Assembly (NCBI RefSeq): GCF_001466665.1
Contig: NZ_KQ758903.1
Coordinates: forward strand, 1,299,684 to 1,363,683
Direction: 5' to 3'
Origin: Dehalogenimonas alkenigignens
Lineage (GTDB): Bacteria; Chloroflexota; Dehalococcoidia; Dehalococcoidales; Dehalococcoidaceae
DNA length: 64,000 bases
The position numbers and the translations under genes were made by a program. The first letter of the stretch is position 1. The number at the start of each line of letters is the position of its first letter. The notes under the pieces are model-generated. The model saw only the letters and a program-made list of their open reading frames with translations, did not search any database and was not told where the DNA came from. Of this stretch, positions 9,865-24,060 are shown one piece after another.

Positions 9865-11661
9865 TTGTTAAAAGACCGTAATTGCGGCGAAATTGATGAA
9901 AAACTAATCGGGCAAAGTGTTACCCTGGCCGGGTGGGTACATAGGCGGCGCGATCACGGTAATTTGATATTTATTGATCTCCGGGACCGAACAGGCCTGG
10001 TACAATGTGTTTTCAATCCCGAGCAAGATAGCGAAACCCACCACCTGGCGGAGTCGCTGCGGATCGAGTACGTGATCCAGGTGTCAGGCCGGATAAGTCC
10101 AAGGCCTCAGGGAACAGAGAACCGCAAGCTCGCGACGGGCGCGGTCGAGATACTGGTCGAAAGTCTGGTTATTCTCAACGAATCAAAAACACCGCCTTTC
10201 TATGTTAATGAAGATGTTGATGTAGATGAGAGCCTGCGCCTGAAATTCCGTTATCTTGACCTCCGGCGTGAGCGGATGCGAAACAACATCATTTTGCGCC
10301 ATAACGTTGTTACATTCATCCGACAATACCTCAATGAGCGTGGATTTCTCGAAATTGAAACACCCATCCTTCTAAAAAGTACCCCTGAAGGCGCGAGGGA
10401 CTACCTGGTTCCCAGCCGGTTGTATCCCGGAAAATTCTATGCTCTCGCCCAGTCCCCACAGCAACTCAAACAACTCCTGATGGTGGCAGGTGTCGAGAGG
10501 TACTATCAGATAGCCAGGTGTTTCCGAGATGAAGACCTGCGCGCTGACCGGCAAATGGAATTCACGCAGCTCGACCTCGAGATGAGTTTTGTCGATGAAG
10601 ACGACATGATGACGCTTCTCGAAGGTCTATTTTCGTCACTGGTCGAAAATGTGGCTCCAGAACGCCGTTTCAACCAACCGTTTCCGCGACTTAGATATGC
10701 CGATATCATGGAGCGGTATGGCTGCGATAAACCGGACCTGCGCTTCGGCATGGAAATCGCTGACCTGTCCGATATCGTAGCGCAAAGCCTTTTCGGTGTA
10801 TTTTCAGGTACCATCGCAAAAGGCGGCGTGGTCAAAGCCATCGGCGTTCCGGGCTGCGGTAAATACACCAAGAGCCAGATCGAAGAACTTATCGAAACGG
10901 CGAAAAAAAACGGCGCCGGCGGATTGGTTCCAATTTCGCTGGGTAACGAAGCGGGAGTGCTGGCAAATCTGACAATGGAACATGTAAAGTCAGTAGCCGC
11001 CAAATATCTTACGCTCGACCAGATACAAGCGATTGCCAGTCGTTGCGAAGCCCAGCCTGGCGACCTGATACTCATCGCCGCGGGCGACAGGAATCGGGTT
11101 AACGCCGCACTGGGGACCCTCCGCACCGAGTTAGGGGGCCGGCTGGGGCTAGCCGATCCAAACGCGCTGGCTTTCGCTTTCGTCACCGACTTCCCGCTGT
11201 TTACCTGGAACCAGGAGGATGAACGGTGGCAACCGACCCATCACCCCTTCACTTCACCCTGGGAACAAGATTTGCCGCTCCTGGAAGCCGAACCAGGTAA
11301 GGTCAGAGGCCGGCATTATGACCTGGTGTTGAATGGATACGAAATCGCCGGAGGGAGCATCCGCATTCACAAAACCGAACTTCAAAGAAAGGTCTTCCAG
11401 ATTCTCGGTCACACCGAAGAACGAATACAAGCGCTGTTTGGTCAACTGCTCGATGCTTTCGAATATGGCGCACCTCCCCATGGCGGCGTAGCTCCAGGCA
11501 TCGACCGGGTAGTGGCGATACTCGCCGGGGAACCGACAATCAGGGAAGTTATTCCTTTTCCGAAGAACCAGGCCGGGTTAGACTTGCTGTTCGGATCACC
11601 TTCGGAAGTGAGCCAAGCTCAAATAGATGCCGTTCATATTTCTGTGAAGACCGATCAGTAG
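9865..11661 (+). CDS. aspS: Aspartyl-tRNA synthetase, probably non-discriminating (Asp/Asn)
   Basis: Charges tRNA-Asp, and perhaps tRNA-Asn, with aspartate. The 598-aa protein is bacterial-type. It has an OB-fold anticodon domain (GWVHRRRDHG at residues 23-32), class II motif 2 (RCFRDEDLRADRQMEFTQ), the inserted GAD domain around residues 300-410, and motif 3 (PPHGGVAPGIDRVVAIL) near the C-terminus. Residue 31 is His, as in non-discriminating enzymes, where discriminating ones such as that of E. coli have Leu. That suggests Asn-tRNA is made with GatCAB; this is inference from one residue. Start is TTG with AGGAG 7 nt upstream. It is followed after 25 nt by tig. Confidence 0.96.
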   Translation: MLKDRNCGEIDEKLIGQSVTLAGWVHRRRDHGNLIFIDLRDRTGLVQCVFNPEQDSETHHLAESLRIEYVIQVSGRISPRPQGTENRKLATGAVEILVESLVILNESKTPPFYVNEDVDVDESLRLKFRYLDLRRERMRNNIILRHNVVTFIRQYLNERGFLEIETPILLKSTPEGARDYLVPSRLYPGKFYALAQSPQQLKQLLMVAGVERYYQIARCFRDEDLRADRQMEFTQLDLEMSFVDEDDMMTLLEGLFSSLVENVAPERRFNQPFPRLRYADIMERYGCDKPDLRFGMEIADLSDIVAQSLFGVFSGTIAKGGVVKAIGVPGCGKYTKSQIEELIETAKKNGAGGLVPISLGNEAGVLANLTMEHVKSVAAKYLTLDQIQAIASRCEAQPGDLILIAAGDRNRVNAALGTLRTELGGRLGLADPNALAFAFVTDFPLFTWNQEDERWQPTHHPFTSPWEQDLPLLEAEPGKVRGRHYDLVLNGYEIAGGSIRIHKTELQRKVFQILGHTEERIQALFGQLLDAFEYGAPPHGGVAPGIDRVVAILAGEPTIREVIPFPKNQAGLDLLFGSPSEVSQAQIDAVHISVKTDQ

Positions 11662-11686
11662 ATTATAATATTTGATTGAGGAATAG

Positions 11687-13051
11687 ATGAAAGTTACCGA
11701 AAAGCAGTTTGAAGCTTGCGAAGCTCTGTTGACAGTAGAATTGGATTCCGACGCTATGGAATCCGCAATGGATACGGCATACCAGCGCCTGGTAAAAAGG
11801 ACTGATATACCGGGGTTCCGTAAAGGGAAGGCGCCGCGTCCTATACTCGAGAGATTTATCGGACGGGAACGACTGATCGAAGAATCGCTCGAGGATGTTT
11901 TACCCAAAGCTTGCGCTGATGCCTTAAAAGAAGAACAAATTCAGAGCTTCGGCCGTCCCGGCATAGAGGTAATACAAAACGACCCGATTATTTTCAAGGC
12001 CAGAGTTCCGCTACCGCCCAAGATAGAACTGGGTGACTATAAAACCATCAGGATGTCACCTGAAACAGTTGAGGTTAAGGAAGATGTGATCGATAGCATG
12101 ATCGAGCATCTCCGACATGAAAAGGCCACCTGGGAACCGGCGGACCGCCCGGTGAAAAACGGCGATCTAGTAACACTGGATCTTGAGAGTAATATCGACG
12201 GCATCAGGTTCATCAACCAAAAATCAGCCCAGTTTGGAATTGACGAAAAGTCTAATTACCCAGCACCCGGCTTTTCCCAAGAAATCATCGGATTGAGCCG
12301 AGACGGTGAAAAGACTTTTAAGTTGAAATACCCCGATGACTTCGCAAAAGTTGAGCTGGCGGGCAAGGAACCGGAATTTAAGATTAAAGTGGTCGAGATC
12401 AAAGAAGAGAAAATGCCGCCAGCTGACGACGAATTTGCGGCTTCGCTAGACGTCGAAACGCCAACCTTCGATACTTTACGGCAGCGGCTGACAGAAAACT
12501 ATCGAAAACGGATGGAACACCTGGCGGAAGAAGCTTTTGAAAACAATATTGTTGATCAGCTGGTAAAAATGAGCACGATCGAATTTCCGTCTAACCTGCT
12601 CGAAATGGAGTATGAACGGCTGGTTAACCAGCAAATGGACAAGTGGCGCTCTCAGATGAGCTCCGAAGCCGAACTTGAGGAGTTTTTAGCTAAGGTCAAT
12701 CCCGAGGAGCTTTCATCAAAGCTCAAGCCCATGGCTGAAACCAGATTAAAGATATCTCTTGCCCTGGGCAAACTGGCTACAAGCGAAAACCTGACAGTCG
12801 GTGATGACGAAATCAACGCAGAGATTGCTGTCATGCTCAGCAGCGTTCCTGAAGATCAGCGCGACAACCAGATGCGGCAATTCGACACTGCCCAGGCAAG
12901 AGAACAGTTACATCAAATACTCCTATCCCGAAAAACCTTGGACAGGCTTAAAGCGATCGCGATGAGTACGGGCGATTCTGCATCCGCGGACCTGGAAATG
13001 ACCGCTGAAAACAAAGAAAGCACCGAAAACAAAGAGGAGGCTACTCAATGA
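11687..13051 (+). CDS. tig: Trigger factor, ribosome-bound chaperone and prolyl isomerase
   Basis: Binds nascent chains at the ribosome exit tunnel. The N-terminal ribosome-binding domain contains the signature [17 protein letters not shown] near residues 43-60. A central FKBP-type domain follows (residues about 150-240), and then a long helical C-terminal chaperone domain. Length is 454 aa, normal for the family. The Lys/Glu-rich C-terminal tail overlaps the clpP start by ATGA (13048-13051), so tig and clpP are translationally coupled. This is the common tig-clpP arrangement, but clpX, which usually follows, is absent here. Confidence 0.96.
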
Positions 13052-13668
13052 TAACGAATCCATCCAGCATCATCCCGATGGTAATAGAAAGCAGCTCAAG
13101 AGGAGAGAGGGCTTTCGACATCTACTCTCTGCTGTTGAAAGAACGCATAGTTTTCCTGGGCACCGAGATTAACGATCAGGTGGCTAATATTATTATCGCG
13201 CAGCTTCTGTTTTTAGACCGCGAAGACCCGGATAAAGACATCAGCCTTTATATCCATTCGCCCGGGGGTGTTATTTCCGCCGGATTGGCAATCTATGACA
13301 CCATGCAGTTGATCCGGCCCGCGGTTTCGACCATTTGCGTCGGTATGGCCGCATCGATGGCTACTGTGTTGCTGTGCGCCGGCGCCAAAGGCAAGCGCTA
13401 TGCGTTGCCCAATGCTACTATTCATATGCACCAGGCGATCGGAGGCGCCAGAGGCCAGGCGGCGGATATCGTCATCGCAGCCCGGGAGATTACCCGCATG
13501 CAGGACATCATTAGAGATATACTCGCCAAGCGTACCGGGCAGCCGCTGGATAAAATAATCCATGATACCGACCGGGACTATTATCTGAACCCCGAAGGGG
13601 CCAAAGAGTATGGTTTGATTGATGAGATACTGCGGAAACCCGAAGAAAAGAAGCCAGTTAAGGAATAA
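13048..13668 (+). CDS. clpP: ATP-dependent Clp protease proteolytic subunit ClpP
   Basis: Serine peptidase that forms the tetradecameric chamber fed by ClpX, ClpA or ClpC. The catalytic triad is visible: S103 in GMAASMA, H128 in IHMHQA, and D173 in DTDRDYY. The 206-aa protein has an N-terminus typical of a processed propeptide ([19 protein letters not shown]). It starts within the last codons of tig. No clpX follows; a strong hairpin at 13689-13722 ends the unit. Confidence 0.96.
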
Positions 13669-13688
13669 TCTAAAATCATTACGGCCAG

Positions 13689-13726
13689 AGAGCGGCGCGC
13701 CGGAACACCGGCGCGCCGCTCTTATA
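13689..13726 (+). terminator. Strong GC hairpin after clpP
   Basis: Perfect 15-bp inverted repeat (13689-13703 with 13708-13722, loop AACA) shortly after the clpP stop. The following T tract is short, so termination is likely but less certain than the fold. Confidence 0.65.
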
Positions 13727-13748
13727 TGTCAGAGAGTTATAAAGCGAT

Positions 13749-13778
13749 TTGCACAACAGCGATGGACTCAATTACAGT
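13749..13778 (+). promoter_or_regulatory. Possible promoter of the GAPDH gene
   Basis: TTGCAC at 13749-13754 and TACAGT at 13773-13778 with an 18-nt spacer. Neither hexamer is perfect. Confidence 0.35.
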
Positions 13779-13786
13779 ATGTACGC

Positions 13787-13798
13787 GGTACTAGTACC
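13787..13798. promoter_or_regulatory. 12-nt perfect palindrome upstream of GAPDH, possible operator
   Basis: GGTACTAGTACC is a perfect palindrome lying just downstream of the possible -10 and 28 nt before the start codon at 13826, where a repressor site could act. No binding protein can be assigned. Confidence 0.3.
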
Positions 13799-13825
13799 CA
13801 ACAAAACAGAAACAGCAGGTGAATT

Positions 13826-14965
13826 ATGAGCAAAGTCAAAGTGGGGATAAACGGCTACGGAGTGATCGGTAAAAGGGTAGCTGATGCGATATTACTGCAA
13901 GATGACATGGAACTGACTGGAGTAACCGCGGTTAACGCCGATTACCGGATCCGAGTTGCCGCCGAAAAAGGCTATTCTATTTTCGCCGCGACCGAAAGCC
14001 GACAATCAATGATGAAAGAAGCCGGAATTCCGGTTGAAGGCTCACTTAAAGATTTACTTAAGAAAGTAGACGTTATCATCGACTGCACGCCGAAAGGCAT
14101 TGGGGCGGAGCAAAAACCTATCTATGAATACGCCCGTGTTAAAGCGGTTTTTCAAGGCGCCGAAAGGCATGAACTGACCGGCATATCGTTTGTGGCCCAG
14201 GTTAATTATGAAGAAGCTTTAAATAAGCAGTTCGCACGTGTTGTATCCTGTAATACGACGGCGTTATGCCGGGTATTGAACTCATTCAATAAACGAAGCT
14301 GGTTGAAGCGAGTCAGAGCTGTGCTGCTCAGACGCGGAACGGATCCCTGGGAAAGCCACCGCGACGGTATGATCAATACGTTCATACCTGAGACTAAAGT
14401 TCCAAGCCATCAGGGGCCAGACGCCCGGACGGTCATTAAGGGACTGGATATAACTACTATGGCCGGAGCCTGTTCACATAATCTCAGTCACGTTCATTAC
14501 GCCATGGTCGAAACCAAACGTCCGATCGGGCTTGACGAGTTGAGATATGCATTGTGGGAGGAGCCAAGGCTGGCATTTGTCCGGTCAAGCAATGGGTTGG
14601 TTGCCCTAAACTCGGTAATTGAACTGATGAGAGACCTGGGACGACCGCGCAACGATATGTGGGAAGTGGCGGTATGGGAAGATGCCCTCGCGGCAGACGA
14701 GCGGGAAACCTACCTGGTATTTCAGGTTCATAATGAGGCCATTACGGTACCCGAAAATATCGATGCCATACGCTCGCTTTGCGGTCTCGAAAAAGACGGC
14801 GCCAAATCAATCGCAAAAACCGACAAGGCTATGGGCATACTCAAATGTTTCTTGCCCAAAACAATACCCGAAGCCGCCGTTCACGCCGAAATAGGAGCGG
14901 CTTTAAAGTTAGAGCGCCGCGAGTTCATCGAGGAAGGTTACAAGGGCGCCGAAGAACCTTTTTGA
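13826..14965 (+). CDS. gap: Type II (archaeal-type) glyceraldehyde-3-phosphate dehydrogenase
   Basis: Predicted phosphorylating GAPDH, interconverting glyceraldehyde 3-phosphate and 1,3-bisphosphoglycerate. The N-terminus has the dinucleotide fold GINGYGVIGKRVADA. The active-site cysteine is C142 in SCNTTALCR, and the later histidine-containing stretch is HNLSHVHYAM. These are features of the archaeal type II family, not of the usual bacterial type I (which has SCTTN). At 379 aa it exceeds the usual roughly 340 aa, through a C-terminal extension rich in Lys, Glu and Ala. It is a single-gene unit convergent with the histidine kinase gene. Cofactor choice (NADP or NAD) cannot be read directly. 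Confidence 0.9.
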   Translation: MSKVKVGINGYGVIGKRVADAILLQDDMELTGVTAVNADYRIRVAAEKGYSIFAATESRQSMMKEAGIPVEGSLKDLLKKVDVIIDCTPKGIGAEQKPIYEYARVKAVFQGAERHELTGISFVAQVNYEEALNKQFARVVSCNTTALCRVLNSFNKRSWLKRVRAVLLRRGTDPWESHRDGMINTFIPETKVPSHQGPDARTVIKGLDITTMAGACSHNLSHVHYAMVETKRPIGLDELRYALWEEPRLAFVRSSNGLVALNSVIELMRDLGRPRNDMWEVAVWEDALAADERETYLVFQVHNEAITVPENIDAIRSLCGLEKDGAKSIAKTDKAMGILKCFLPKTIPEAAVHAEIGAALKLERREFIEEGYKGAEEPF

Positions 14966-15005
14966 GACTAACAGGTGAGCCCTGTCCCGGAAGGAGGTTT
15001 CGGCG

Positions 15006-18000
15006 TCAAATTCGGCCTTTAACATCGTTCAGGGTCTGGGAGACCGCGAGGGCGAGTGCTGCCGGCTCAAAGGGTTTCACCAGACTGGGTAGACGGTGCT
15101 TTTCCAGGAACATTTTGACATCTTCACCCAGGGTATCGCCGGTGATAATTACGATACGTCCAGTCATTTCCGGCCGGCGGTCAATAATCTCGGTGTAAAG
15201 CGCCATGCCGCTTGTCCCGGGCAATCGAAGATCCATGACGATAACATCGTAGTCTTTTTTGCTTAGTAGAATCAGTGCTTGCGCGGCTGAAGCCGCGGTG
15301 TCAATGTGCCGACCTTCCCCGGAAAGAGATTCAACCGCCAGGTTGCGTATGCACTCCTCGTCGTCTATCACCAAGATAACGGCCGCTGATTGATGTCCGA
15401 GGTTGATGACACTTGGGTCACGAGTTTCGGCTGCCGCACCGGAGGATTGAACAATAGGCAACAGGATGGTGAAAGCAGCCCCGCAGCCGGGAGACGATTC
15501 CACCTCCAGAGTGCCGCCGTGTTCCTCAACGATTGAACGTGAAAGCGATAACCCCAGACCGGTGCCTTCGCCGGGATTTTTGGTGGTGAAGAACGGCTGG
15601 AAAATCTTTGTGACAGTTATGTTGTCGATTCCAGGACCGGAATCGGCGAAAACCAACCTGAGATATTTCCCCTCCAAAGCGGCGGTGATGGTGAGTTTCC
15701 CTGGCTTGCCACTATGCTTGATGGCATATTCGGCATTGACGATGAGATTCAGGATAACCTGCTGCATCTGGCCCGGATCAACGATTATCCACGGTAAATT
15801 TTCAGAATAATTTTTAACAACCTCGATGCCAGCAGTCTTCAATACGTATGCCCTGAGTTCGAGAGTATTATCTATCAGCTCAGTAATATCCACGCGCGAT
15901 TTCAAAGGTTTGGTTTGGTGGGCAAAGGTCAGCATTCTTTTGACGATTTCGGCCACTCTTCTGGAGCCATCAACGATAACTTTCAAGTCGTCAGCGACTT
16001 CCGGCGCCAGATCGCTGCGGGCAAGCAACAACTCTGAAAAACCAAGGACACCGGTGAGGGGATTGTTAATCTCATGGGCAATTCCGGCGGCCATTTCGCC
16101 GACGGCAGCCAGGCGGCTGGACAACTCGGCTTTTTCTTTTAACCGCTGTTGTTCAGCTTCGGCCTTTTTAATGGCAGTGATGTCGCGGGCGATATGGACG
16201 TATCTCCCGCTGGATTTACCGCCAATTTTGATAGGAGTGATGTTGACCTGATAGGTATTATCACCCTGAACGATCTCATCACCCAAACCGCACCGATTCC
16301 GGTCGCCGAGGCCAGGACAAAAGCCGGGCAAGACACAGGTATCGTGCATTATTTGATAACACTTTTTACCTACCGCCTCGGCCGGAAGCATTCCGGTCTT
16401 GTCGGCCATGGAACGGTTGACGCGGATAATGTTATGGTCCTTATCCAAAATACAAATCAGGTCAGGTATGGAGTCAAAAGTGCTTTCCCACTCCTGTTTT
16501 GCAATTAAGATTGCCTGATCATTCTTGCGGCGTTCTAAGATATCACGTTCAGCGATCAGCAGTCCCCGTAATGATACTGCGGCTACCGATGTGAGCGAAC
16601 GGATGAGGAAATGATCGCTGTTCGAGAACTCCTGACGGCTTGCTTTATCCGAAAGGAACAAAACGCCAACGGTCTTGCCGGCGGCCGTGAGCGGAATCAT
16701 ATAAGCAACATCTTTTGAGCCCACAACGTTAGGATATTCCGTCGAAGGCGTTCTCCGTTTAACAAAATCCATCAATTCAAATTCAAACGCTCTATCAGCG
16801 TAAACACCTCGCGCGGCGGCGAATACAAAACTTGTTTCATCAGTAGCTACAAATAGGCAGGCGCCTGATAGGTTCATGGATGTCATCGGGGCGTCGATGA
16901 TCAATGAGGAAGCCACCTCAACGCTAGCTGTTGCGCTGAGCGATGCGCTCAAGGTTTGAATTATTTGCTGGTAGTCATGACGGTCTTTGTAGAAGAATTT
17001 ATCAACCAATGCTTCTGTGGCGCTTCTGGCTGGGCCTAAGAGAAGAACCGCTATAGCTGAAAGGAATAAGGCCAGGATGAATTGCTGAGTGAAACCTGGA
17101 GCGACTCCACCTGATAATACCAATGCAAAAACACCGGCAAGGACCGCAGCCATCGATAGAGTGATAAGACCGTACACAACTCCTCTTCGAACCACCACAT
17201 CAATATTCATCAATTGGCGCGCGATGACGGCATAACCGAGAGACAGTGGTATGAACGACAGGAAGGCTACCGTAATATTTGACTGTAGAAATACACTGTC
17301 ATCCTGAACCCCAGGGAAGACACTGAACACCAAAAAAGGTAGCAAAGCAGCCATGCATCCTAAAAGGATGATGACCATTTGCTGCCTGGTCCGCGAATCC
17401 GCTGCTCTTAAGAGATTGAATACTACGACACCTATAACACCCAAGAAACCGACGCCGTATCCGATCAGCCTGAAGGTCCGAAAATCCGGGAGAGGCTGCC
17501 CATTCGACTGCCCAATGAATGGATATGCAATCACAATCAACGCCGGCAAAACATAAACCAGGTATTGGTAGGGCTTATGTCTCAACCAGGCGCGCTCCTG
17601 GGGGAGAATCAAAAAGAAGTGGAGCAGCAGCCAGGGGCCGATGGTAGACGCAACAACGGTGATATGCAAAGCCAATGGGGCCAGACGATCCGAAGCCATA
17701 TTCGAACTGAGAGCCAGTCCGAACACAAGACCGCAGGCCAACAAAAGTACCGACGCCTCGTTTTTCGGATTACGGAGATAAACATAAATTCCGACAACCC
17801 AAAACGCAAGGCAAGGAAGAAGCCACATGACGAGGTCTATTGTCGCGGTTGAAGTAGGTTGAGTCAGAGATGAATCCGCATCAAGTATTGTGCCATTAGG
17901 ATTTACCACAGTAATTTGGCGAACTACTCTGATCCAACCTGAATCTTTAAAAGCTGACAAATATTGATCAGCCGGCAGTCCATCGATGATTAATGGAATA

Positions 18001-18206
18001 TCTCCCGGGGCGATACCTAGTTCATTACCGATCCCATATGGATCCACGCTCTCAACAACCCATTGTTCATTATCATTTTTGAGGGAAATGCCAATGTAGG
18101 AGTGACTAAAGCTATAAACAAAATAAAAAGCCGATATAATTAGCACGAAAACCGAGAAAACAATCGGGAGACGGTACAGGTTGAATTGAAGGCGGGCGTT
18201 ATTCAT
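15006..18206 (-). CDS. Membrane hybrid histidine kinase with ComP-like N-terminus (PDZ-like, multi-TM, GAF, PAS, HisKA, HATPase, REC)
   Basis: Sensor kinase of 1066 aa, likely the receptor of the adjoining peptide system. TM1 spans residues about 13-33 and is followed by an extracytoplasmic PDZ-like segment (about 45-105, with GIAPGDIPLIIDG). About seven to eight membrane helices fill residues 122-392, ending in the stretch IARQLMNIDVVVRRGVVYGL. A GAF domain (about 415-555) and a Cys-rich PAS domain (570-685, with KCYQIMHDTC) follow. HisKA has H711 in GIAHEINNP, and HATPase has GTGLGLSLS (about 881-889). A REC domain with D992 ends the protein. The start overlaps the prenyltransferase stop by 8 nt (ATGAATAA), so translation is coupled. 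The PDZ-plus-multi-TM layout resembles ComP; the HisKA class and fused REC differ from ComP. No DNA-binding response regulator lies nearby. Confidence 0.9.
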   Translation of the reverse strand: MNNARLQFNLYRLPIVFSVFVLIISAFYFVYSFSHSYIGISLKNDNEQWVVESVDPYGIGNELGIAPGDIPLIIDGLPADQYLSAFKDSGWIRVVRQITVVNPNGTILDADSSLTQPTSTATIDLVMWLLPCLAFWVVGIYVYLRNPKNEASVLLLACGLVFGLALSSNMASDRLAPLALHITVVASTIGPWLLLHFFLILPQERAWLRHKPYQYLVYVLPALIVIAYPFIGQSNGQPLPDFRTFRLIGYGVGFLGVIGVVVFNLLRAADSRTRQQMVIILLGCMAALLPFLVFSVFPGVQDDSVFLQSNITVAFLSFIPLSLGYAVIARQLMNIDVVVRRGVVYGLITLSMAAVLAGVFALVLSGGVAPGFTQQFILALFLSAIAVLLLGPARSATEALVDKFFYKDRHDYQQIIQTLSASLSATASVEVASSLIIDAPMTSMNLSGACLFVATDETSFVFAAARGVYADRAFEFELMDFVKRRTPSTEYPNVVGSKDVAYMIPLTAAGKTVGVLFLSDKASRQEFSNSDHFLIRSLTSVAAVSLRGLLIAERDILERRKNDQAILIAKQEWESTFDSIPDLICILDKDHNIIRVNRSMADKTGMLPAEAVGKKCYQIMHDTCVLPGFCPGLGDRNRCGLGDEIVQGDNTYQVNITPIKIGGKSSGRYVHIARDITAIKKAEAEQQRLKEKAELSSRLAAVGEMAAGIAHEINNPLTGVLGFSELLLARSDLAPEVADDLKVIVDGSRRVAEIVKRMLTFAHQTKPLKSRVDITELIDNTLELRAYVLKTAGIEVVKNYSENLPWIIVDPGQMQQVILNLIVNAEYAIKHSGKPGKLTITAALEGKYLRLVFADSGPGIDNITVTKIFQPFFTTKNPGEGTGLGLSLSRSIVEEHGGTLEVESSPGCGAAFTILLPIVQSSGAAAETRDPSVINLGHQSAAVILVIDDEECIRNLAVESLSGEGRHIDTAASAAQALILLSKKDYDVIVMDLRLPGTSGMALYTEIIDRRPEMTGRIVIITGDTLGEDVKMFLEKHRLPSLVKPFEPAALALAVSQTLNDVKGRI

Positions 18207-19173
18207 TGAAACCAGCCATATTCAGAAAAGGTGATAGGAGGCTAATATTTACTTTACTCGGAGGCAAAGATTCTAACTGATCGATAGCCAGATGGATGAA
18301 TTTTTGAGCTTGAAGAAGGGTATAATGTACCCCCCCTGATTGAAATAATACCCGCTTCACCGGTTCAGGGTCATCTGTGACAGGGGTGCCGGCATCATAG
18401 GTGCAGTCGATGTAATTGGATTGATCACGAAGGGACCCGTTCCTTGCGAATATCACAGGTAAAGTGACTTTTTTACCGCAGATATCTTTTCCCGTGGTAA
18501 TATCACGAATATCATTACACAGTTGTAACGCTGTTCCAACATACTTCCCGAAATCCGCGAAAGAAGTGATTACTCCTGGATCATTTGTCGAAAGAATGGC
18601 GCCAATATGGCAGGCACATTGGATTTGAGACGCTGAAGTTTTTTGGATATGGGCGATATATGCTGTCTCATCAAAACAAGAACGCAACGAACCGGATAAA
18701 TCTTCGTGTTGCCCGCTGGAAGACTGAATAAAATATCCAGTTAACGTTTCGAGGGCAGAATGAAATATTTGGTACGAAACGAGGTTATTCATTCGAGCGA
18801 AAGCAGCGTATGCGAGCAATATCAGAGTAGAGCCGATATTCATCCGGACGGGTTTGCTTAGGCCGGTAAAACCAGTGAGGATAGTGTCGTCATCTTCTAG
18901 ATCGTCGAATATATCGGCCGCTGTCAGCATGAACTGCATTGCGGCAGCGAAAGGTAAAGCATGTGTCCATTCGCCGTTTATGCTCTGGGCAACATACAAA
19001 GGCAACAATGGCCATTGATTATTGTCTGATGATGTTCCTAAAACTCTTCCTTCAACGGCCAGTGGTGCTCTTATATGAGAGATAAATTCAGTGTTATTAG
19101 AATAAGGAGCTAGAATTGCTTCTAGCTCCTTATTTAGGGCTATACTTTTAATAACTAAGCCGCCCCGATCCAT
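18199..19173 (-). CDS. Polyprenyl-synthetase-like protein, candidate ComQ-type peptide isoprenyl transferase
   Basis: Divergent all-helical isoprenyl-diphosphate synthase fold. The first Asp-rich motif is DDLEDDD within TAADIFDDLEDDD (about residues 90-96). The second is NDIRD (about 220-224), followed by GKKVTLPVIFA. Isoprenyl synthases would normally show DDxxD twice, and ComQ proteins show a similarly degenerate second motif. It lies directly after a 69-aa peptide gene with a C-terminal Trp and before a ComP-like kinase, so peptide prenylation is the best reading. The ATG at 19173 is preferred. A GTG at 19200 would extend it by 9 codons and overlap the peptide gene by 10 nt. Alternative: a small-molecule prenyl diphosphate synthase. 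Low-GC codon use, by eye, contrasts with gap. Confidence 0.82.
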   Translation of the reverse strand: MDRGGLVIKSIALNKELEAILAPYSNNTEFISHIRAPLAVEGRVLGTSSDNNQWPLLPLYVAQSINGEWTHALPFAAAMQFMLTAADIFDDLEDDDTILTGFTGLSKPVRMNIGSTLILLAYAAFARMNNLVSYQIFHSALETLTGYFIQSSSGQHEDLSGSLRSCFDETAYIAHIQKTSASQIQCACHIGAILSTNDPGVITSFADFGKYVGTALQLCNDIRDITTGKDICGKKVTLPVIFARNGSLRDQSNYIDCTYDAGTPVTDDPEPVKRVLFQSGGVHYTLLQAQKFIHLAIDQLESLPPSKVNISLLSPFLNMAGFNE

Positions 19174-19190
19174 AATTGAAAGATACCTTG

Positions 19191-19400
19191 TTAAAACCAC
19201 CCACCCATGGGTCCAATTTGCGACTGGAGAGAAACGCCATCAGCGGTGACAAGGCCCGTACGCGCATGCAAGGAAAGGACTGCCTTTTTATCAACCGGGG
19301 TAAGTTCCAGTTTGGCGACATACGCCTCGGGATCAGCTTCGAAATCCTTGCGGGCGGACTCATCTCTGAATATGGTCTGGACTAAATCGGCCAAGTTCAT
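19191..19400 (-). CDS. 69-aa candidate ComX-like pheromone precursor peptide
   Basis: Small gene at the head of the operon, with a strong AAGGAGGAG ribosome site 5 nt before the ATG and a near-perfect promoter upstream. The N-terminal 50 residues look like a recognition leader (MNLADLVQTIF, then FEADPEAYVAKLELTP, helical and charged). The last 19 residues are small and polar and end GPMGGWF. W68 is the only tryptophan and lies next to the C-terminus. ComX pheromones likewise carry a single modified Trp within a few residues of the C-terminus. The leader also recalls LigA-like sequences found in some peptide precursors. Function is inferred from context with the prenyltransferase and kinase genes; the match to ComX itself is by pattern, not alignment. 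Confidence 0.8.
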   Translation of the reverse strand: MNLADLVQTIFRDESARKDFEADPEAYVAKLELTPVDKKAVLSLHARTGLVTADGVSLQSQIGPMGGWF

Positions 19401-19405
19401 AACAA

Positions 19406-19461
19406 CTCCTCCTTAATTAATTTTAGTTACGGATTATAAACTCAGAATGTCAACACGTCAA
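19406..19461 (-). promoter_or_regulatory. Promoter and ribosome site of the ComX-like operon
   Basis: On minus: TTGACG (complement of 19456-19461), 17-nt spacer, perfect TATAAT (complement of 19433-19438), then AAGGAGGAG (complement of 19406-19414) 5 nt before the ATG. Among the strongest signals in the window, implying high expression of the peptide gene. Confidence 0.85.
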
Positions 19462-19602
19462 TAGATATCAGACATATCGGTAATATTTATTTATATGGGA
19501 GTAACTGAAGGCATATTCGAAACGTCTCAATCATAACTCGGCTAAGGAAGGCTGACAATAGTACTATCGTTATGGGGGAAGAGGTGAATCGAAGAAGGAA
19601 TC

Positions 19603-19679
19603 TGGTCGGGGTGGACGGATTTGAACCGTCGACCACCTGAACCCCATTCAGGTGCGCTACCAGGCTGCGCTACACCCCG
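19603..19679 (-). tRNA. tRNA-Pro (anticodon GGG)
   Basis: Cloverleaf with acceptor CGGGGTG / CACCCCG, D arm AGCGCAGCCTGGTAGCGC, anticodon stem CCTGA / TCAGG with loop ATGGGGT (anticodon GGG), and T arm GACGGTTCAAATCCGTC. A 3' CCA is encoded. It sits between the ComX-like operon and def. Confidence 0.97.
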
Positions 19680-19731
19680 ATTTGGAAAGCGCTAGAATGT
19701 TATCATAGACATCTGGGTGTCGCAAGCCGCT

Positions 19732-19760
19732 TTGCCAGTCAAACATAAACCATATATAAT
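19732..19760 (+). promoter_or_regulatory. Promoter of def
   Basis: TTGCCA at 19732-19737, 17-nt spacer, perfect TATAAT at 19755-19760; 28 nt before the def start at 19789. Confidence 0.7.
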
Positions 19761-19788
19761 AAGCTTACATAAAACTTGAGTGAAACGA

Positions 19789-20313
19789 ATGGCAATACGA
19801 ACTATCTGCAAATATCCTGATCCAGTACTCAGACAAAAAGCCAAAAAGATACCTCTGGTAGACAAGAGTATTCGAATTCTTGTCGAAGACATGATAGAGA
19901 CAATGAAGGATAATTGCGGCTGCGGCTTAGCAGCGCCGCAGGTAGGGGTGTCCCTTCGATGTATCGTCATCGGAATGCCGGAAGAAGAACCGTATGCCAT
20001 CATTAATCCTGAGTTTGTCAAACGAGTCGGAGAGCGTGAAATAGAAGAGGCTTGCCTTTCCGTTCCCGAACTTGCCGGGAGTGTTAAGCGTTCCGAGTCG
20101 GTGATCGTTAAAGGCCTAGACAAAAACGGTAAACCCATACGCGTTAAAGGACGGGAACTCCTGAGTCAAGCGTTGGAACATGAAATAGATCATCTAAACG
20201 GCGTACTGTTTATTGACCGGGTCGAATCTCCTGAAAAACTTCGTAAACGGAAAAAAATGAAAGAAGAAGAAGAGACGACCGAGACAAGCACTTCCGCCTC
20301 ACCGGATAAGTAA
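19789..20313 (+). CDS. def: Peptide deformylase
   Basis: Removes the formyl group from N-terminal methionine of new proteins. All three family motifs are present: GCGLAAPQVG (residues 44-53), EEACLSVPE with metal ligand C89, and ALEHEIDHLNG with H131, E132 and H135. Motif 2 has EACLS instead of the usual EGCLS. A charged C-terminal tail follows the fold (174 aa). The ATG at 19789, giving the canonical MAIRTI, is preferred over a GTG three codons upstream. The gene ends 2 nt before the HAD phosphatase gene. Confidence 0.96.
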   Translation: MAIRTICKYPDPVLRQKAKKIPLVDKSIRILVEDMIETMKDNCGCGLAAPQVGVSLRCIVIGMPEEEPYAIINPEFVKRVGEREIEEACLSVPELAGSVKRSESVIVKGLDKNGKPIRVKGRELLSQALEHEIDHLNGVLFIDRVESPEKLRKRKKMKEEEETTETSTSASPDK

Positions 20314-20315
20314 AT

Positions 20316-20954
20316 ATGCAGAAAACATTGTTACAATGTGATTTCGACGGGACGCTGACAGAAGAAGATGTCAGCTTTTTAATTCTAGACCGCTACGCAG
20401 AAGGTGATTGGCGAGCAATACTGAAAGAGTATCAATCGGGCACGATCAGCGTCGGCGCATTTAATAACCGGGCCTTCTCTATGGTAAAACAGGAGAAAAA
20501 GACTCTTGAAACGCTTGTCTGCAATGAAGCTAAGTTACGCCCCGGTTTGATAGAACTGGTTGAGTATTGCCGGTTAAACCAGATCGAAATGGTTATCGTT
20601 TCGAACGGACTAGACTTCTATATCCGGGCATTGCTTGAGAAAAGCAGATTGAATCATATCAGAGTAATCGCAGCCACCACCGCGTTCACGCCATCAGGAC
20701 TCGATTCACATTATATTGGGTCGGATGGCGGTGAATTGATGGTCGCGTTCAAAGAGCACTACACTGAGAAATTCATTGAACGTGGATTTAGAGTGTTTTA
20801 CGCCGGAAACGGCCCCTCCGATATACCTGCCTCAAAACTTGCCGTACACACTTTTGCGACCGACTCGCTACTGGATTATTATATTCAGCATGGGGCTCGT
20901 CACACACCTTTTAAGGACCTGCGCGATATTGTTGAGGGCCTCAAATCCTTCTAA
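20316..20954 (+). CDS. HAD-superfamily (subfamily IB, MtnX-like) phosphatase
   Basis: Predicted phosphomonoesterase of 212 aa. The nucleophile motif DFDGTLT is at residues 9-15, motif II is VIVSNGLDFYI, and the motif III/IV region is YAGNGPSDIPA. The closest known groups are MtnX-like enzymes and phosphoserine phosphatases. It lies 2 nt after def, so the two are cotranscribed. No other methionine-salvage gene is near, so the substrate is left open. It converges with yggS, overlapping its stop by 4 nt. Confidence 0.85.
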   Translation: MQKTLLQCDFDGTLTEEDVSFLILDRYAEGDWRAILKEYQSGTISVGAFNNRAFSMVKQEKKTLETLVCNEAKLRPGLIELVEYCRLNQIEMVIVSNGLDFYIRALLEKSRLNHIRVIAATTAFTPSGLDSHYIGSDGGELMVAFKEHYTEKFIERGFRVFYAGNGPSDIPASKLAVHTFATDSLLDYYIQHGARHTPFKDLRDIVEGLKSF

Positions 20955-21631
20955 AGCCGCGGCCCGAAAATAGCCTCCCCCAACCTTACCAGATTAGCAC
21001 CTTCTTCAATAGCAACACGGTAGGACTCGGTCGTACCCATTGACAGGTACCGGATATCCGCAAAGCCTGCGCTTTCTTCTTTGAGAGCATTGAACAAACC
21101 TCTGGCTTCAGAAAAAAATGGCCTCATCATTTCGCCTGGAAGATTCGGGCCAAGAGTCATGAGTCCTTCTAATGTTAGGTTAGGCATTTTCCCGATCTCA
21201 TGAGCCAAAGCGATCAGGTTTTCAGGAGCAACACCAGATTTCCGCTGTTCTCGTGCGATGTTGACTTCAATGAATACGGGCATGATTTTGCGTGCTTCAA
21301 AGGCGCGTCGGTCGATTAAGCGAGCTAGATAGGGGCTGTCAACAGTCTCGATCACATCAAACAGTTCAACGGCTTTTTTGATTTTATTGGATTGCAGGCG
21401 TCCGATAAAGTGCCAGCAGCCTCGGGAGAGTAAATAGCGTCTGGCAGCTTCAGTTTCCTGAACATAATTTTCACCAATTATCGAAATCCCGGCATCAAAC
21501 GCGGCCGCGATTTCCGCCGGCGAGCGAGATTTAGCTGCGGCAACAATAGCGACATCTCCGGGAATTTCAGCCAGCAGGCGACGGACATTATCGCCTATGG
21601 ACTGCGAGGCAAAATCAGTTTGGTACCGCAT
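20951..21631 (-). CDS. yggS: YggS/PLPBP family pyridoxal phosphate homeostasis protein
   Basis: PLP-binding protein that buffers the cofactor and affects amino-acid metabolism. The PLP lysine is K34 in VAIVAAAKSR (usually AVSKTK). Other family motifs are GENYVQE, HFIGRLQSNK and SMGTTESYRVAIEEGANLVRLG (in parts SMGTTES and VRLGEAIFG). The frame extends to 21673, but the added residues are unlike the family, so the ATG at 21631 is chosen, giving 226 aa. It overlaps the upstream zinc-ribbon gene by 37 nt. Confidence 0.92.
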   Translation of the reverse strand: MRYQTDFASQSIGDNVRRLLAEIPGDVAIVAAAKSRSPAEIAAAFDAGISIIGENYVQETEAARRYLLSRGCWHFIGRLQSNKIKKAVELFDVIETVDSPYLARLIDRRAFEARKIMPVFIEVNIAREQRKSGVAPENLIALAHEIGKMPNLTLEGLMTLGPNLPGEMMRPFFSEARGLFNALKEESAGFADIRYLSMGTTESYRVAIEEGANLVRLGEAIFGPRL

Positions 21632-22032
21632 TGGGGACAATACTTCATTCCAGCATTCAAAGATGATGAACATACTGAACAGGCAGGCGCCGTCAACGCT
21701 GTTCCACCTGCCAGTTCGCCCAATAATTTATGTAGTTGTTCTTTCGTCATCAGACGTTCGGCAATGTCCGTTTTAAGTTCCTCAGCAATTTCATATCTGG
21801 TTACACAGCGGGCGCAGGTCATATATTGTTTGACGCGATATTGTATTGTAGGAACAAAATAGACAGTAAGTTTCTTGCGTTCCTGATGCACCGCGAAAAC
21901 CTGGTCCGACCGACAGTTGGGACAGCGAGTTACAATAAAACCCAGATGATCGCCATAGTTCTTGTTACCGAAAAGCAAGACCATAAACGAGTATAGCGGA
22001 ACAATGGCGCCCATTGTCAACCTACCCGACAT
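21595..22032 (-). CDS. Zinc-ribbon protein of unknown function
   Basis: A 145-aa protein with two Cys4 zinc ribbons. The first is CPNC paired with CARC around residues 40-75; the second is CSVC paired with CPQCG at the C-terminus. A short hydrophobic start, VPLYSFMVLLFGN, precedes the first ribbon. The chosen ATG at 22032 has a GAGAGG ribosome site. A longer frame to 22119 would run into tRNA-Leu and is rejected. It is followed by yggS on the same strand. Similar zinc-ribbon proteins occur widely, usually without known function. Confidence 0.8.
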   Translation of the reverse strand: MSGRLTMGAIVPLYSFMVLLFGNKNYGDHLGFIVTRCPNCRSDQVFAVHQERKKLTVYFVPTIQYRVKQYMTCARCVTRYEIAEELKTDIAERLMTKEQLHKLLGELAGGTALTAPACSVCSSSLNAGMKYCPQCGTKLILPRSP

Positions 22033-22089
22033 GAAACCTCTCTTTTGACTTAGTCGCTGTAGCTCAGCTATGTTAATATTATTCCCGTT

Positions 22090-22171
22090 GGGGGAGTGCC
22101 GGAACTGGCAGACGGGCATGACTTAGGATCATGTGCCGAAAGGCGTCGGGGTTCGAGTCCCCGCTTCCCCA
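22090..22171 (+). tRNA. tRNA-Leu (anticodon TAG)
   Basis: Class II tRNA with a long variable arm. The acceptor is GGGGGAG / CTTCCCC, and the anticodon stem CATGA / TCATG has loop CTTAGGA (anticodon TAG). The variable arm is GTGCCGAAAGGCGT and the T arm GGGGTTCGAGTCCCC. The discriminator is A at 22171; CCA is not encoded. Confidence 0.96.
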
Positions 22172-22198
22172 TTATTACCTGATTAACTGCATAAAGCC

Positions 22199-23134
22199 AT
22201 GAATGAAACCGCAGTCTACGAACACCTCACAACCGAACTAAAGTCAATCAATTGCATGCATGGATTTCTGGAAATCAGAAGAGTTCCGGAATTGAAACGG
22301 GAACTCGAATCCCGGTTGCATAAAGGCCAACTTGATACTGCTTTCTTTGTAAAAAATCTTGAACGGCTGGAGGTTTCAGCGCCGACCCGTTTTGCCGAAG
22401 TCAACTCACTCATAATTATTGCCGCGCCTTTACCGCTCACGAGGTTGATTTTCGAATATCAGGGCAGAGGTCGGCCGGTACAAATTCCTCCCTTTTATGT
22501 TTTCAAAGATAAATTGGCAGCTATCCGAAAAGCGCTTGGACGAAGTTTAGGTGCCGCTGGGTATCAAATCGCAGACGCCCGGGTACCTTTGAAGTTAGCG
22601 GCGATACGCAGCGGCCTGGCACGTTACGGGAGAAACAACCTGGCTTACATCCAGGGGATGGGCAGCTTCCATAGATTGGTAGCATTTTATACCGATTTAC
22701 CCGCACCGGCCGACGCCTGGTTTCGACTCAGTGAGATGGAAGAATGCACCAGTTGCGGCTTTTGTTTAGGTAACTGTCATACTGATTGCCTTAATCCCGA
22801 TGCAGGCAACCGTTTTCTTGCACGAGCTGAAAAGTGTCTAACTCTTTACAATGAAGAACCGGGAGAACTGCCGAGTTGGATCACGCCCTGGCTCCACAAC
22901 TCCTTGATAGGCTGCATGCGCTGCCAATCCAGTTGCCCTTTGAACCGGACCTTTATACGAAATGTTCCGATTTCTGACACGTTTAACGAACCGGAAGCTA
23001 TGGCAATATTAGCGACGCCGGTATTCGGCGACCTTCCAGGAGCCCTCCAGGAGAAGTTAGTTAAGTATGATCTTCAAGACTACTATGACCTGGTGCCGCG
23101 GAACCTCAAATTCCTGCTGGAGTGGGAACTGTGA
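22199..23134 (+). CDS. QueG-like double-[4Fe-4S] cluster protein (copy 1)
   Basis: A 311-aa iron-sulfur protein of the epoxyqueuosine-reductase-like group. The C-terminal half carries CTSCGFCLGNC, an isolated AEKC, and CMRCQSSCP, the ligand set for two [4Fe-4S] clusters, also used by reductive dehalogenases. The N-terminal half is the less conserved QueG-like fold with the stretch LAYIQGMGSFHRL. A true QueG needs cobalamin and specific substrate residues that I cannot confirm, so queuosine synthesis is not claimed. It is a tandem paralogue of the next gene, overlapping it by GTGA. tRNA-Leu lies immediately upstream. Confidence 0.83.
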   Translation: MNETAVYEHLTTELKSINCMHGFLEIRRVPELKRELESRLHKGQLDTAFFVKNLERLEVSAPTRFAEVNSLIIIAAPLPLTRLIFEYQGRGRPVQIPPFYVFKDKLAAIRKALGRSLGAAGYQIADARVPLKLAAIRSGLARYGRNNLAYIQGMGSFHRLVAFYTDLPAPADAWFRLSEMEECTSCGFCLGNCHTDCLNPDAGNRFLARAEKCLTLYNEEPGELPSWITPWLHNSLIGCMRCQSSCPLNRTFIRNVPISDTFNEPEAMAILATPVFGDLPGALQEKLVKYDLQDYYDLVPRNLKFLLEWEL

Positions 23135-24060
23135 TTTCCACATTGGCAGAAAAGGTGACGGATGAGCTGGAGCTTTCCGGCTATCGCGCGGCTAACGCAA
23201 GCATTGACCGACTGGCTACCATTGAACAAGAATTCCGTTCCATAGCCAACCGTGATGAATGGCGCAAATCTCCTCACCTTTCACAGCACATATTCGATTT
23301 CACTTTACCCCAAGAATATCAAGCTAAATCGATACTCGTCGTTGCAGCACCGGTCGCACCGGTTAATATCGGTTTCGTATTTGGTGGGGAATATTTTTCC
23401 TTCGATGCTCCTCCTTTGTCAGAAGACTATGAACAAGATGCCGCCAATATTTTTTCTGAGATTAAGAAGATAATCTCGCCGCAGGGATATCGCCTGTCCG
23501 AGTCCAATTTACCCACCAAGATTCTTGCCAGCCACTGCGGATTAATTTCCAACGGCGTCAACAATATTGGCTACATAGACGGGATGGGCAGCTATTTTCG
23601 GTTGAGCGCGTATTTTTCGGACATTGAACCAGGAAATGAAAAATGGCTAAATAACCACTCGGTGAACCCCAAATGCGCCGGGTGCTCAAGGTGCATCGAC
23701 ACCTGCCCAACAAAATGCATCGAGCGCTCCTCTTTTCAAGTAAACCGGTGCCTTTCACTTCTTTCAAAGGAACCTACCGATTTTCCGGTTTGGATAAACA
23801 GTAAATGGCATAATGCATTAATAGGATGCCGGATTTGCCAAAAAGTTTGTCCACTAAATCAGGAGGTTTCGTTTAAGGCGAGCATCGGCGCTGATTTCGA
23901 TGAAACTGAAACCGCGGCAATCCTTTCAGGTGAGCCTCTGGAAAATCTCTGTTCTAAAACCAGAGAAAAACTGCGATACTTCACTCTGGAGCCATTGTAC
24001 CCTGTGGTATCGCGCAATTTACGCTTATTGTTCAAAAAACATGGACTGACAGTAAATTGA
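23131..24060 (+). CDS. QueG-like double-[4Fe-4S] cluster protein (copy 2)
   Basis: A 309-aa paralogue of the preceding protein. It shares GYIDGMGSYFRLSAYFSD in the middle, and the cluster motifs CAGCSRCIDTCPTKC, NRC and CRICQKVCPLN. The GTG at 23131 is preferred over a GTG at 23122 because GGAG lies 9 nt upstream of it and the overlap with copy 1 becomes the common GTGA. The downstream Crp/Fnr gene overlaps it in turn by TTGA, so the three are translationally coupled. Electron transfer or reduction of a small molecule is likely, but no substrate can be named. Confidence 0.83.
   Translation: MISTLAEKVTDELELSGYRAANASIDRLATIEQEFRSIANRDEWRKSPHLSQHIFDFTLPQEYQAKSILVVAAPVAPVNIGFVFGGEYFSFDAPPLSEDYEQDAANIFSEIKKIISPQGYRLSESNLPTKILASHCGLISNGVNNIGYIDGMGSYFRLSAYFSDIEPGNEKWLNNHSVNPKCAGCSRCIDTCPTKCIERSSFQVNRCLSLLSKEPTDFPVWINSKWHNALIGCRICQKVCPLNQEVSFKASIGADFDETETAAILSGEPLENLCSKTREKLRYFTLEPLYPVVSRNLRLLFKKHGLTVN

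Follow-up and report, generated by a model that had tools for sequence, protein, structure and literature searches.

A three-gene operon of Dehalogenimonas alkenigignens, X-Q-P, probably encodes a lipid-peptide signalling system that is based on a prenylated tryptophan and works like ComQXP of Bacillus. The operon lies in the window, that is, the whole 64,000-nt stretch of DNA analysed, which comes from a genome of 1.85 Mb (G000). Its genes, for a small peptide (X), a prenyltransferase-like protein (Q) and a membrane receptor (P), had been described in a sequence-only reading as three linked minus-strand genes, and they overlap, Q by 10 nt with X from its GTG start and P by 8 nt with Q (Table 1). 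Q could equally well start at an ATG 18 nt past the stop codon of X; it has 333 aa from the GTG and 324 from the ATG. The order X-Q-P, as against Q-X-P-A in comQXPA, was confirmed, and the near-perfect promoter claimed upstream of X was found in the form TTGAC[GT]-N17-TATAATCC in four species, namely the window species and those of genomes G001, G002 and G006. In these four, X-Q-P has the same order and the same place between clpP and def, with some extra genes on the def side in G001 and G002. Elsewhere in the window, at 22199-24060, two paralogous genes in tandem, each encoding a protein of about 311 aa that has ferredoxin-like Cys clusters, adjoin a tRNA-Leu.

Table 1. Coordinates of the X-Q-P operon features in the window, and of regulator genes upstream of X in relatives (L numbers are loci in those genomes)
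Feature	Position	Strand	Remarks
X-Q-P operon including promoter	15006-19461	-	
Promoter TTGACG-N17-TATAAT of X-Q-P	19433..19461	-	11/12 match; kept 5' of X in G006, G001, G002
X ribosome binding site AAGGAGGA	19407..19414	-	strong Shine-Dalgarno; kept in four species
X, 69-aa precursor peptide, NHLP/LigA-like leader and Trp-tailed end SLQSQIGPMGGWF	19191..19400	-	
Trp68 codon of X, proposed prenyl acceptor	19197-19199	-	
Q, predicted ComQ-type tryptophan prenyltransferase	18199..19200	-	GTG start; alternative ATG 19173
Q first Asp-rich motif DDLED, residues 99-103	18892..18906	-	alignments
Q pseudo-second Asp-rich motif NDIRD, residues 229-233	18502..18516	-	N-D invariant with Firmicutes ComQ
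P, ComP-like membrane receptor and hybrid histidine kinase, 1066 aa	15006..18206	-	
P sensor module, residues 1-425: TM1, PDZ-like domain, TM2-TM10	16932..18206	-	model; Anoxybacillus ComP match
P PDZ-like domain, residues 40-111	17874-18089	-	model; PDZ matches
P HisKA + HATPase_c, residues 702-918	15453..16103	-	
P C-terminal receiver domain, residues 944-1055	15042..15377	-	
Upstream receiver-type regulator genes	L049 10622-11032; L050 10854-11249; L060 6163-6549; L062 2534-2926; L051 10307-10738		

X is a real gene: its dN/dS was low in three genome pairs (about 0.15 for G000/G006, 0.07 for G001/G002 and 0.10 for G000/G001), and the X-Q-P order and place are kept in G001, G002 and G006. 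A copy search showed that X is present once in its own genome. The GGWF end reported for the small peptide is correct, the product ending in ...IGPMGGWF. In the profile of 14 X peptides the invariant columns were a leader leucine, a leader alanine and the tail tryptophan, and no C-terminal residue other than the tryptophan was common to the whole set. The tryptophan stands at position -2 nearly throughout (WF, WL, WS, WM, WT or WV) and at -1 in G046; G025 ends in WWWS and G039 in ...GSWLVIAP. A Trp-tailed ORF was located directly 5' of 18 of 21 Q genes, a set that includes four close relatives of one genus, so that the events are not all independent. The control, 42 ordinary prenyl synthase loci, gave 35 upstream ORFs of 45-95 aa, none of which had a Trp among the last three residues. 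A chance ORF with a Trp end was ruled out by the purifying selection on X, the synteny and this control (0/42). At the other three Q loci (G465, G542 and G570) the upstream ORF has a strong ribosome site and carries its Trp about 10-13 residues from the end; these ORFs (L097, L170 and L171) form a third type of X, with a W[AMV]A context around that Trp.

In size and site X agrees with ComX, defined as a peptide of 52-73 aa with a Trp in the C-terminal region, encoded beside comQ and comP (PMC4008528): it has 69 aa and Trp68, and lies beside Q and P. Its membership of the ComX family, as earlier proposed, was not upheld. The Pfam ComX model PF05952, a weak model with which control genomes including B. 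subtilis also stayed below the cut-off, gave no match at E ≤ 1 in the eight genomes of the genus, and hhalign of X against Anoxybacillus ComX gave a probability of 6%. Instead, the leader of X gave weak matches of the LigA/NHLP type. Model NF038399 (Os1348/NHLP clan) matched 13 of the 14 X peptides at E ≤ 0.1, the best at 6.8e-12, with the window X and the others with listed scores below the curated cut-off. In the PDB the leader matched the nitrile hydratase alpha subunit, an NHLP leader and the LigA-domain precursor SonA (E 0.01-0.5), and the top Pfam match of X was LigA, just under the cut-off. X as the LigA subunit of an aromatic-ring dioxygenase was rejected: the match is confined to the helical leader, a region that RiPP precursors have as well, and none of the genes seen beside X was LigB-like. 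X appears not to be a ComX-family peptide, and its leader bears a weak likeness to NHLP-clan RiPP and LigA-like leaders.

The weak NHLP-clan match of the leader would also suit a secreted prenylated RiPP with a mainly antimicrobial or interspecies role, which P would sense only to allow autoinduction or protect the producer, much as happens in some lantibiotic systems. A Trp-prenylated NHLP-type RiPP is known in PalX/PalQ of Paenibacillus alvei (PMC10853753). PalX resembles X in a Trp at or next to the C-terminus and has an NHLP-type leader, to which the leader of X may be akin, and PalQ is, like Q, a trans-IDS-like prenyltransferase; however, PalQ tolerates no residue after the Trp, whereas X mostly has one, and the available part of that paper mentions no dedicated PalX receptor. 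In the loci that we examined, a transporter, an immunity gene or a further tailoring gene was never a constant partner of X and Q. The constant partner was the receptor, with regulatory enzymes as outputs, and we consider the antimicrobial role unlikely.

Q belongs to the Polyprenyl_synt fold family (PF00348), and both motifs claimed for it, DDLED and NDIRD, were located. We compared it with ComQ proteins encoded beside annotated comX on plasmids NZ_CP015439 (Anoxybacillus) and NZ_CP130332 (Lysinibacillus). Chloroflexota Q matched these by BLASTP with E-values down to 1e-24 and by hhalign at E 7e-28. DDLED aligns with the first motif of ComQ, in which the first and fifth Asp are essential. In ComQ the second motif must be NDxxx (or GDxxx), and a change of N to D sharply lowers activity (PMC5331326). 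Here it is N-D, not DDxxD, in all complete group-1 Q proteins as in Firmicutes ComQ. Across both phyla D99, D100, D103, D105, G163-Q164, Q226, N229-D230 and a few other residues are invariant. Ordinary synthases in this class show [ST]L[IV]HDD and, for the most part, DD in the second motif, whereas in Q and ComQ a D stands three residues ahead of the DD and the second motif is ND. Since ND is also found in a few ordinary synthases, the N-D motif alone is not sufficient and the tree is the stronger evidence: a branch of length 1.15 with 100/100 support cuts all 43 synthases off from Q and ComQ, the inner order on the ComQ side being unsure. Grouping with GGPP-type synthases had been named as a result that would defeat the quorum-sensing reading, and Q falls with ComQ instead.

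A fold search with the Q model did not separate synthases from tryptophan transferases; GGPP synthases came top, and the tryptophan prenyltransferase Ord1 followed a few Z units lower. Ord1 shares the fold (structures 9v4g-9v4j, Z of about 30 to the Q model) and the Gln conserved ahead of the second motif, but its substrate is free tryptophan and no peptide or receptor partner is described (PMC13290415). From its relationship to ComQ, Q very probably attaches a prenyl group to the tryptophan of X. Its being an ordinary GGPP or FPP synthase was ruled out by the tree and the motifs. A divergent prenyl diphosphate synthase whose small isoprenoid is sensed by P, with X as an accessory protein of Q or P, would fit the Polyprenyl_synt fold, the first Asp-rich motif and the last Asp of NDIRD, which window Q retains. 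Against it, every complete group-1 Q has the N-D second motif as in ComQ, not DDxxD, the same genomes carry ordinary synthases as separate genes, and Trp is the sole C-terminal residue kept in the 14 aligned X peptides; we regard this explanation as very improbable.

A second group, with genes in the order X-Q-P-A (L158, L159, L163 and L162, in G347, G183, G018 and G065, respectively), has Q proteins without the second Asp of the first motif, which reads FDRVADRE, FDSVADRD, FDKVADRE and FDALADHD in the same order of genomes. Their second motif is DD, not ND, and the peptides nonetheless end in PWV, QWS, AWF and GWI. The catalysis of these Q proteins may differ.

The third gene had been read as a multi-TM kinase with a PDZ-like segment after TM1, and the predicted model of P (mean pLDDT 74, poor past residue 290) agrees with this, with TM1 at 10-34, a beta/alpha domain at 40-111 and nine further long helices; Pfam PDZ matches were obtained in P of relatives. 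A published prediction gives ComP itself ten TM helices and places a PDZ domain in its first loop (PMC9620489). The P sensor matched Anoxybacillus ComP over about 400 residues, by BLASTP at about 1e-5 to 4e-12 for most members and by hhalign with a probability of 99% over the chain, and P thus shares with ComP a homologous sensor in which TM1 and TM2, the first of about ten TM helices, flank a PDZ domain. In a fold search the P sensor matched many 7-helix receptors with Z of 12-15, values of little meaning for helical bundles. The earlier description lacked two domains, a PAS domain at residues 572-678, ahead of HisKA, and the receiver, and P was classed as a hybrid kinase because these are present. 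The output half of ComP is HisKA_3 + HATPase_c, whereas window P has HisKA + HATPase_c + receiver.

The proposed likeness to the ComQXPA system of Bacillus and other Firmicutes holds in part. The transferase (by tree and N-D pseudo-SARM) and the sensor (by the Anoxybacillus match, the PDZ domain in the first extracytoplasmic loop and the ten TM helices) are homologous, a Trp lies near the peptide end, and the genes are tightly packed. The peptide leader is NHLP/LigA-like and not of the PF05952 type, the window kinase has HisKA and a receiver instead of HisKA_3, there is no adjacent ComA, other output modules occur in relatives, and the gene order and the phylum differ. The trio would work like ComQXP, with a ComQ relative as Q and the ComP sensor in P; the peptide family, the gene order and the output are what is different.

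From the homology and the linked pattern of the genes we infer prenylation of the tryptophan, export of the processed tail and its recognition by P. X would be made as a precursor whose N-terminal leader is recognised by Q, and Q would move a geranyl or farnesyl group onto Trp68 in the conserved end. A protease would then remove the leader, and a short prenylated C-terminal peptide would leave the cell. At high local concentration, as expected for population sensing, the peptide would bind to P, whose ligand site would consist of the PDZ domain, on the extracytoplasmic side, together with the ten-helix bundle. The free W-hydrophobic C-terminus of X would suit the PDZ groove of P, and we suggest that the groove binds it, a suggestion that is weakened by the loci with an internal Trp. 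In the window genome, binding would shift the HisKA/receiver phosphorelay through an unlinked partner and so act on regulated genes; in relatives the same sensor would drive other outputs, including the HD-GYP and HD-GYP+GGDEF enzymes of c-di-GMP. Receiver-type response regulator genes of about 130-140 aa lie directly 5' of X in several relatives and are absent at the window locus; they are candidates for the phosphorelay partner.

The distribution of the genes was determined in 393 genomes of the class. A ComQ-type Q was found in 13, X (≥50 bits) in the same 13, and the P sensor (≥420 bits) in 12 of these; in the remaining one, G047, the contig ends inside Q. Transferase genes standing without a peptide or receptor would have spoken against the quorum-sensing reading, and the related Q genes do adjoin a Trp-tailed peptide and a receptor. 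Distant matches to the P profile led to X-Q-P in G696 and to X-Q-P-A with a NarL/LuxR-type regulator in G347, G183, G018 and G065, and outside the class the latter arrangement occurs in other Chloroflexota, namely G465, G542 and G570. The pattern scan of named genomes was narrow and reached Chloroflexota only, so that absence elsewhere proves nothing. The P sensor was also detected (≥420 bits) in one genome beyond this set, G275, as an orphan ComP-type receptor (L157 3525-5930) in a genome where X and Q were not found; it is possibly an eavesdropper, or the result of an assembly gap.

The output of P differed among these loci. It is a hybrid kinase in G000, G001, G002, G220, G256 and UBA5627, and a simple kinase in G219, G377, G014 and G275. 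At seven loci (G347, G183, G018, G065, G465, G542 and G570) it is a HisKA_3-type kinase with a separate NarL-type regulator, the HisKA_3 matches being mostly weak, with none in G570. In G046, G025 and G039 it is HD-GYP, and in G696 HD-GYP + GAF + GGDEF, with the HD and GYP motifs kept in all four. The output domain of these four is that of HD-GYP c-di-GMP phosphodiesterases, but here it is joined in one protein to a ComP-type peptide sensor, and the gene accompanies X and Q. The sensor-only tree requires at least five output changes, its deep forks being unsure. Because of these swaps, lipid-peptide receptors that act directly on c-di-GMP are predicted. We think it rather likely that Chloroflexota have a large modular family of prenyl-peptide receptors, one ComP-type sensor being combined with varied outputs, and that in some species a one-protein transmembrane receptor of the HD-GYP or HD-GYP+GGDEF type lets a lipidated peptide pheromone alter c-di-GMP turnover directly and without phosphotransfer.

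Several observations were counted against the signalling reading. The genus core of X, SLQSxxGPMxGW[FL], is strongly conserved, in contrast to the pherotypes of Bacillus, which change fast. The acceptor of Q lies beyond proof by sequence and fold alone. X-Q-P is missing from four of the eight genomes of the genus (G003, G004, G005 and G007), and in G006 (L016 9562-10712) an IS3-type transposase pair lies between Q and P, the end of Q and TM1 of P being gone and X intact. The orphan receptor of G275 was counted likewise, as was the lack of a response regulator or ComA gene among the ORFs of 11000-24000 beside the window operon. No exporter or leader protease gene was found within the operon, and to our knowledge no dedicated exporter has been established for ComX either. 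PMC10853753 terms the proteases unknown. That the trio no longer functions in the window species and is kept by drift after loss of the response regulator would agree with the absent adjacent regulator, the patchy presence and the IS-broken copy, but is highly unlikely given that the X, Q and P ORFs and the receiver domain of P are all intact, the dN/dS of X is about 0.07-0.15 and the promoter is conserved.

In a census of 2014, Bacillaceae and Clostridiales had comQXPA-like loci and no group beyond Firmicutes did (PMC4008528), and a comparative genomics study of Dehalogenimonas from 2026 does not mention quorum sensing or a pheromone (PMC13390414); we found no description of such a system in Chloroflexota in the open-access papers searched. 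With lipid-peptide signalling as the preferred reading of X-Q-P, cell-to-cell signalling of a kind that had been reported from Firmicutes alone looks much wider and more modular. As the trio occurs in several lineages of a phylum distant from Firmicutes, the use of prenylated tryptophan for signalling would be older, or more mobile, than has been assumed. Enzyme work gains about twenty new peptide-transferase pairs from these loci, and the natural series of sensor-output swaps would allow tests of how a ComP-type sensor passes its signal on. For Dehalococcoidia, X would be a candidate cell-to-cell signal.
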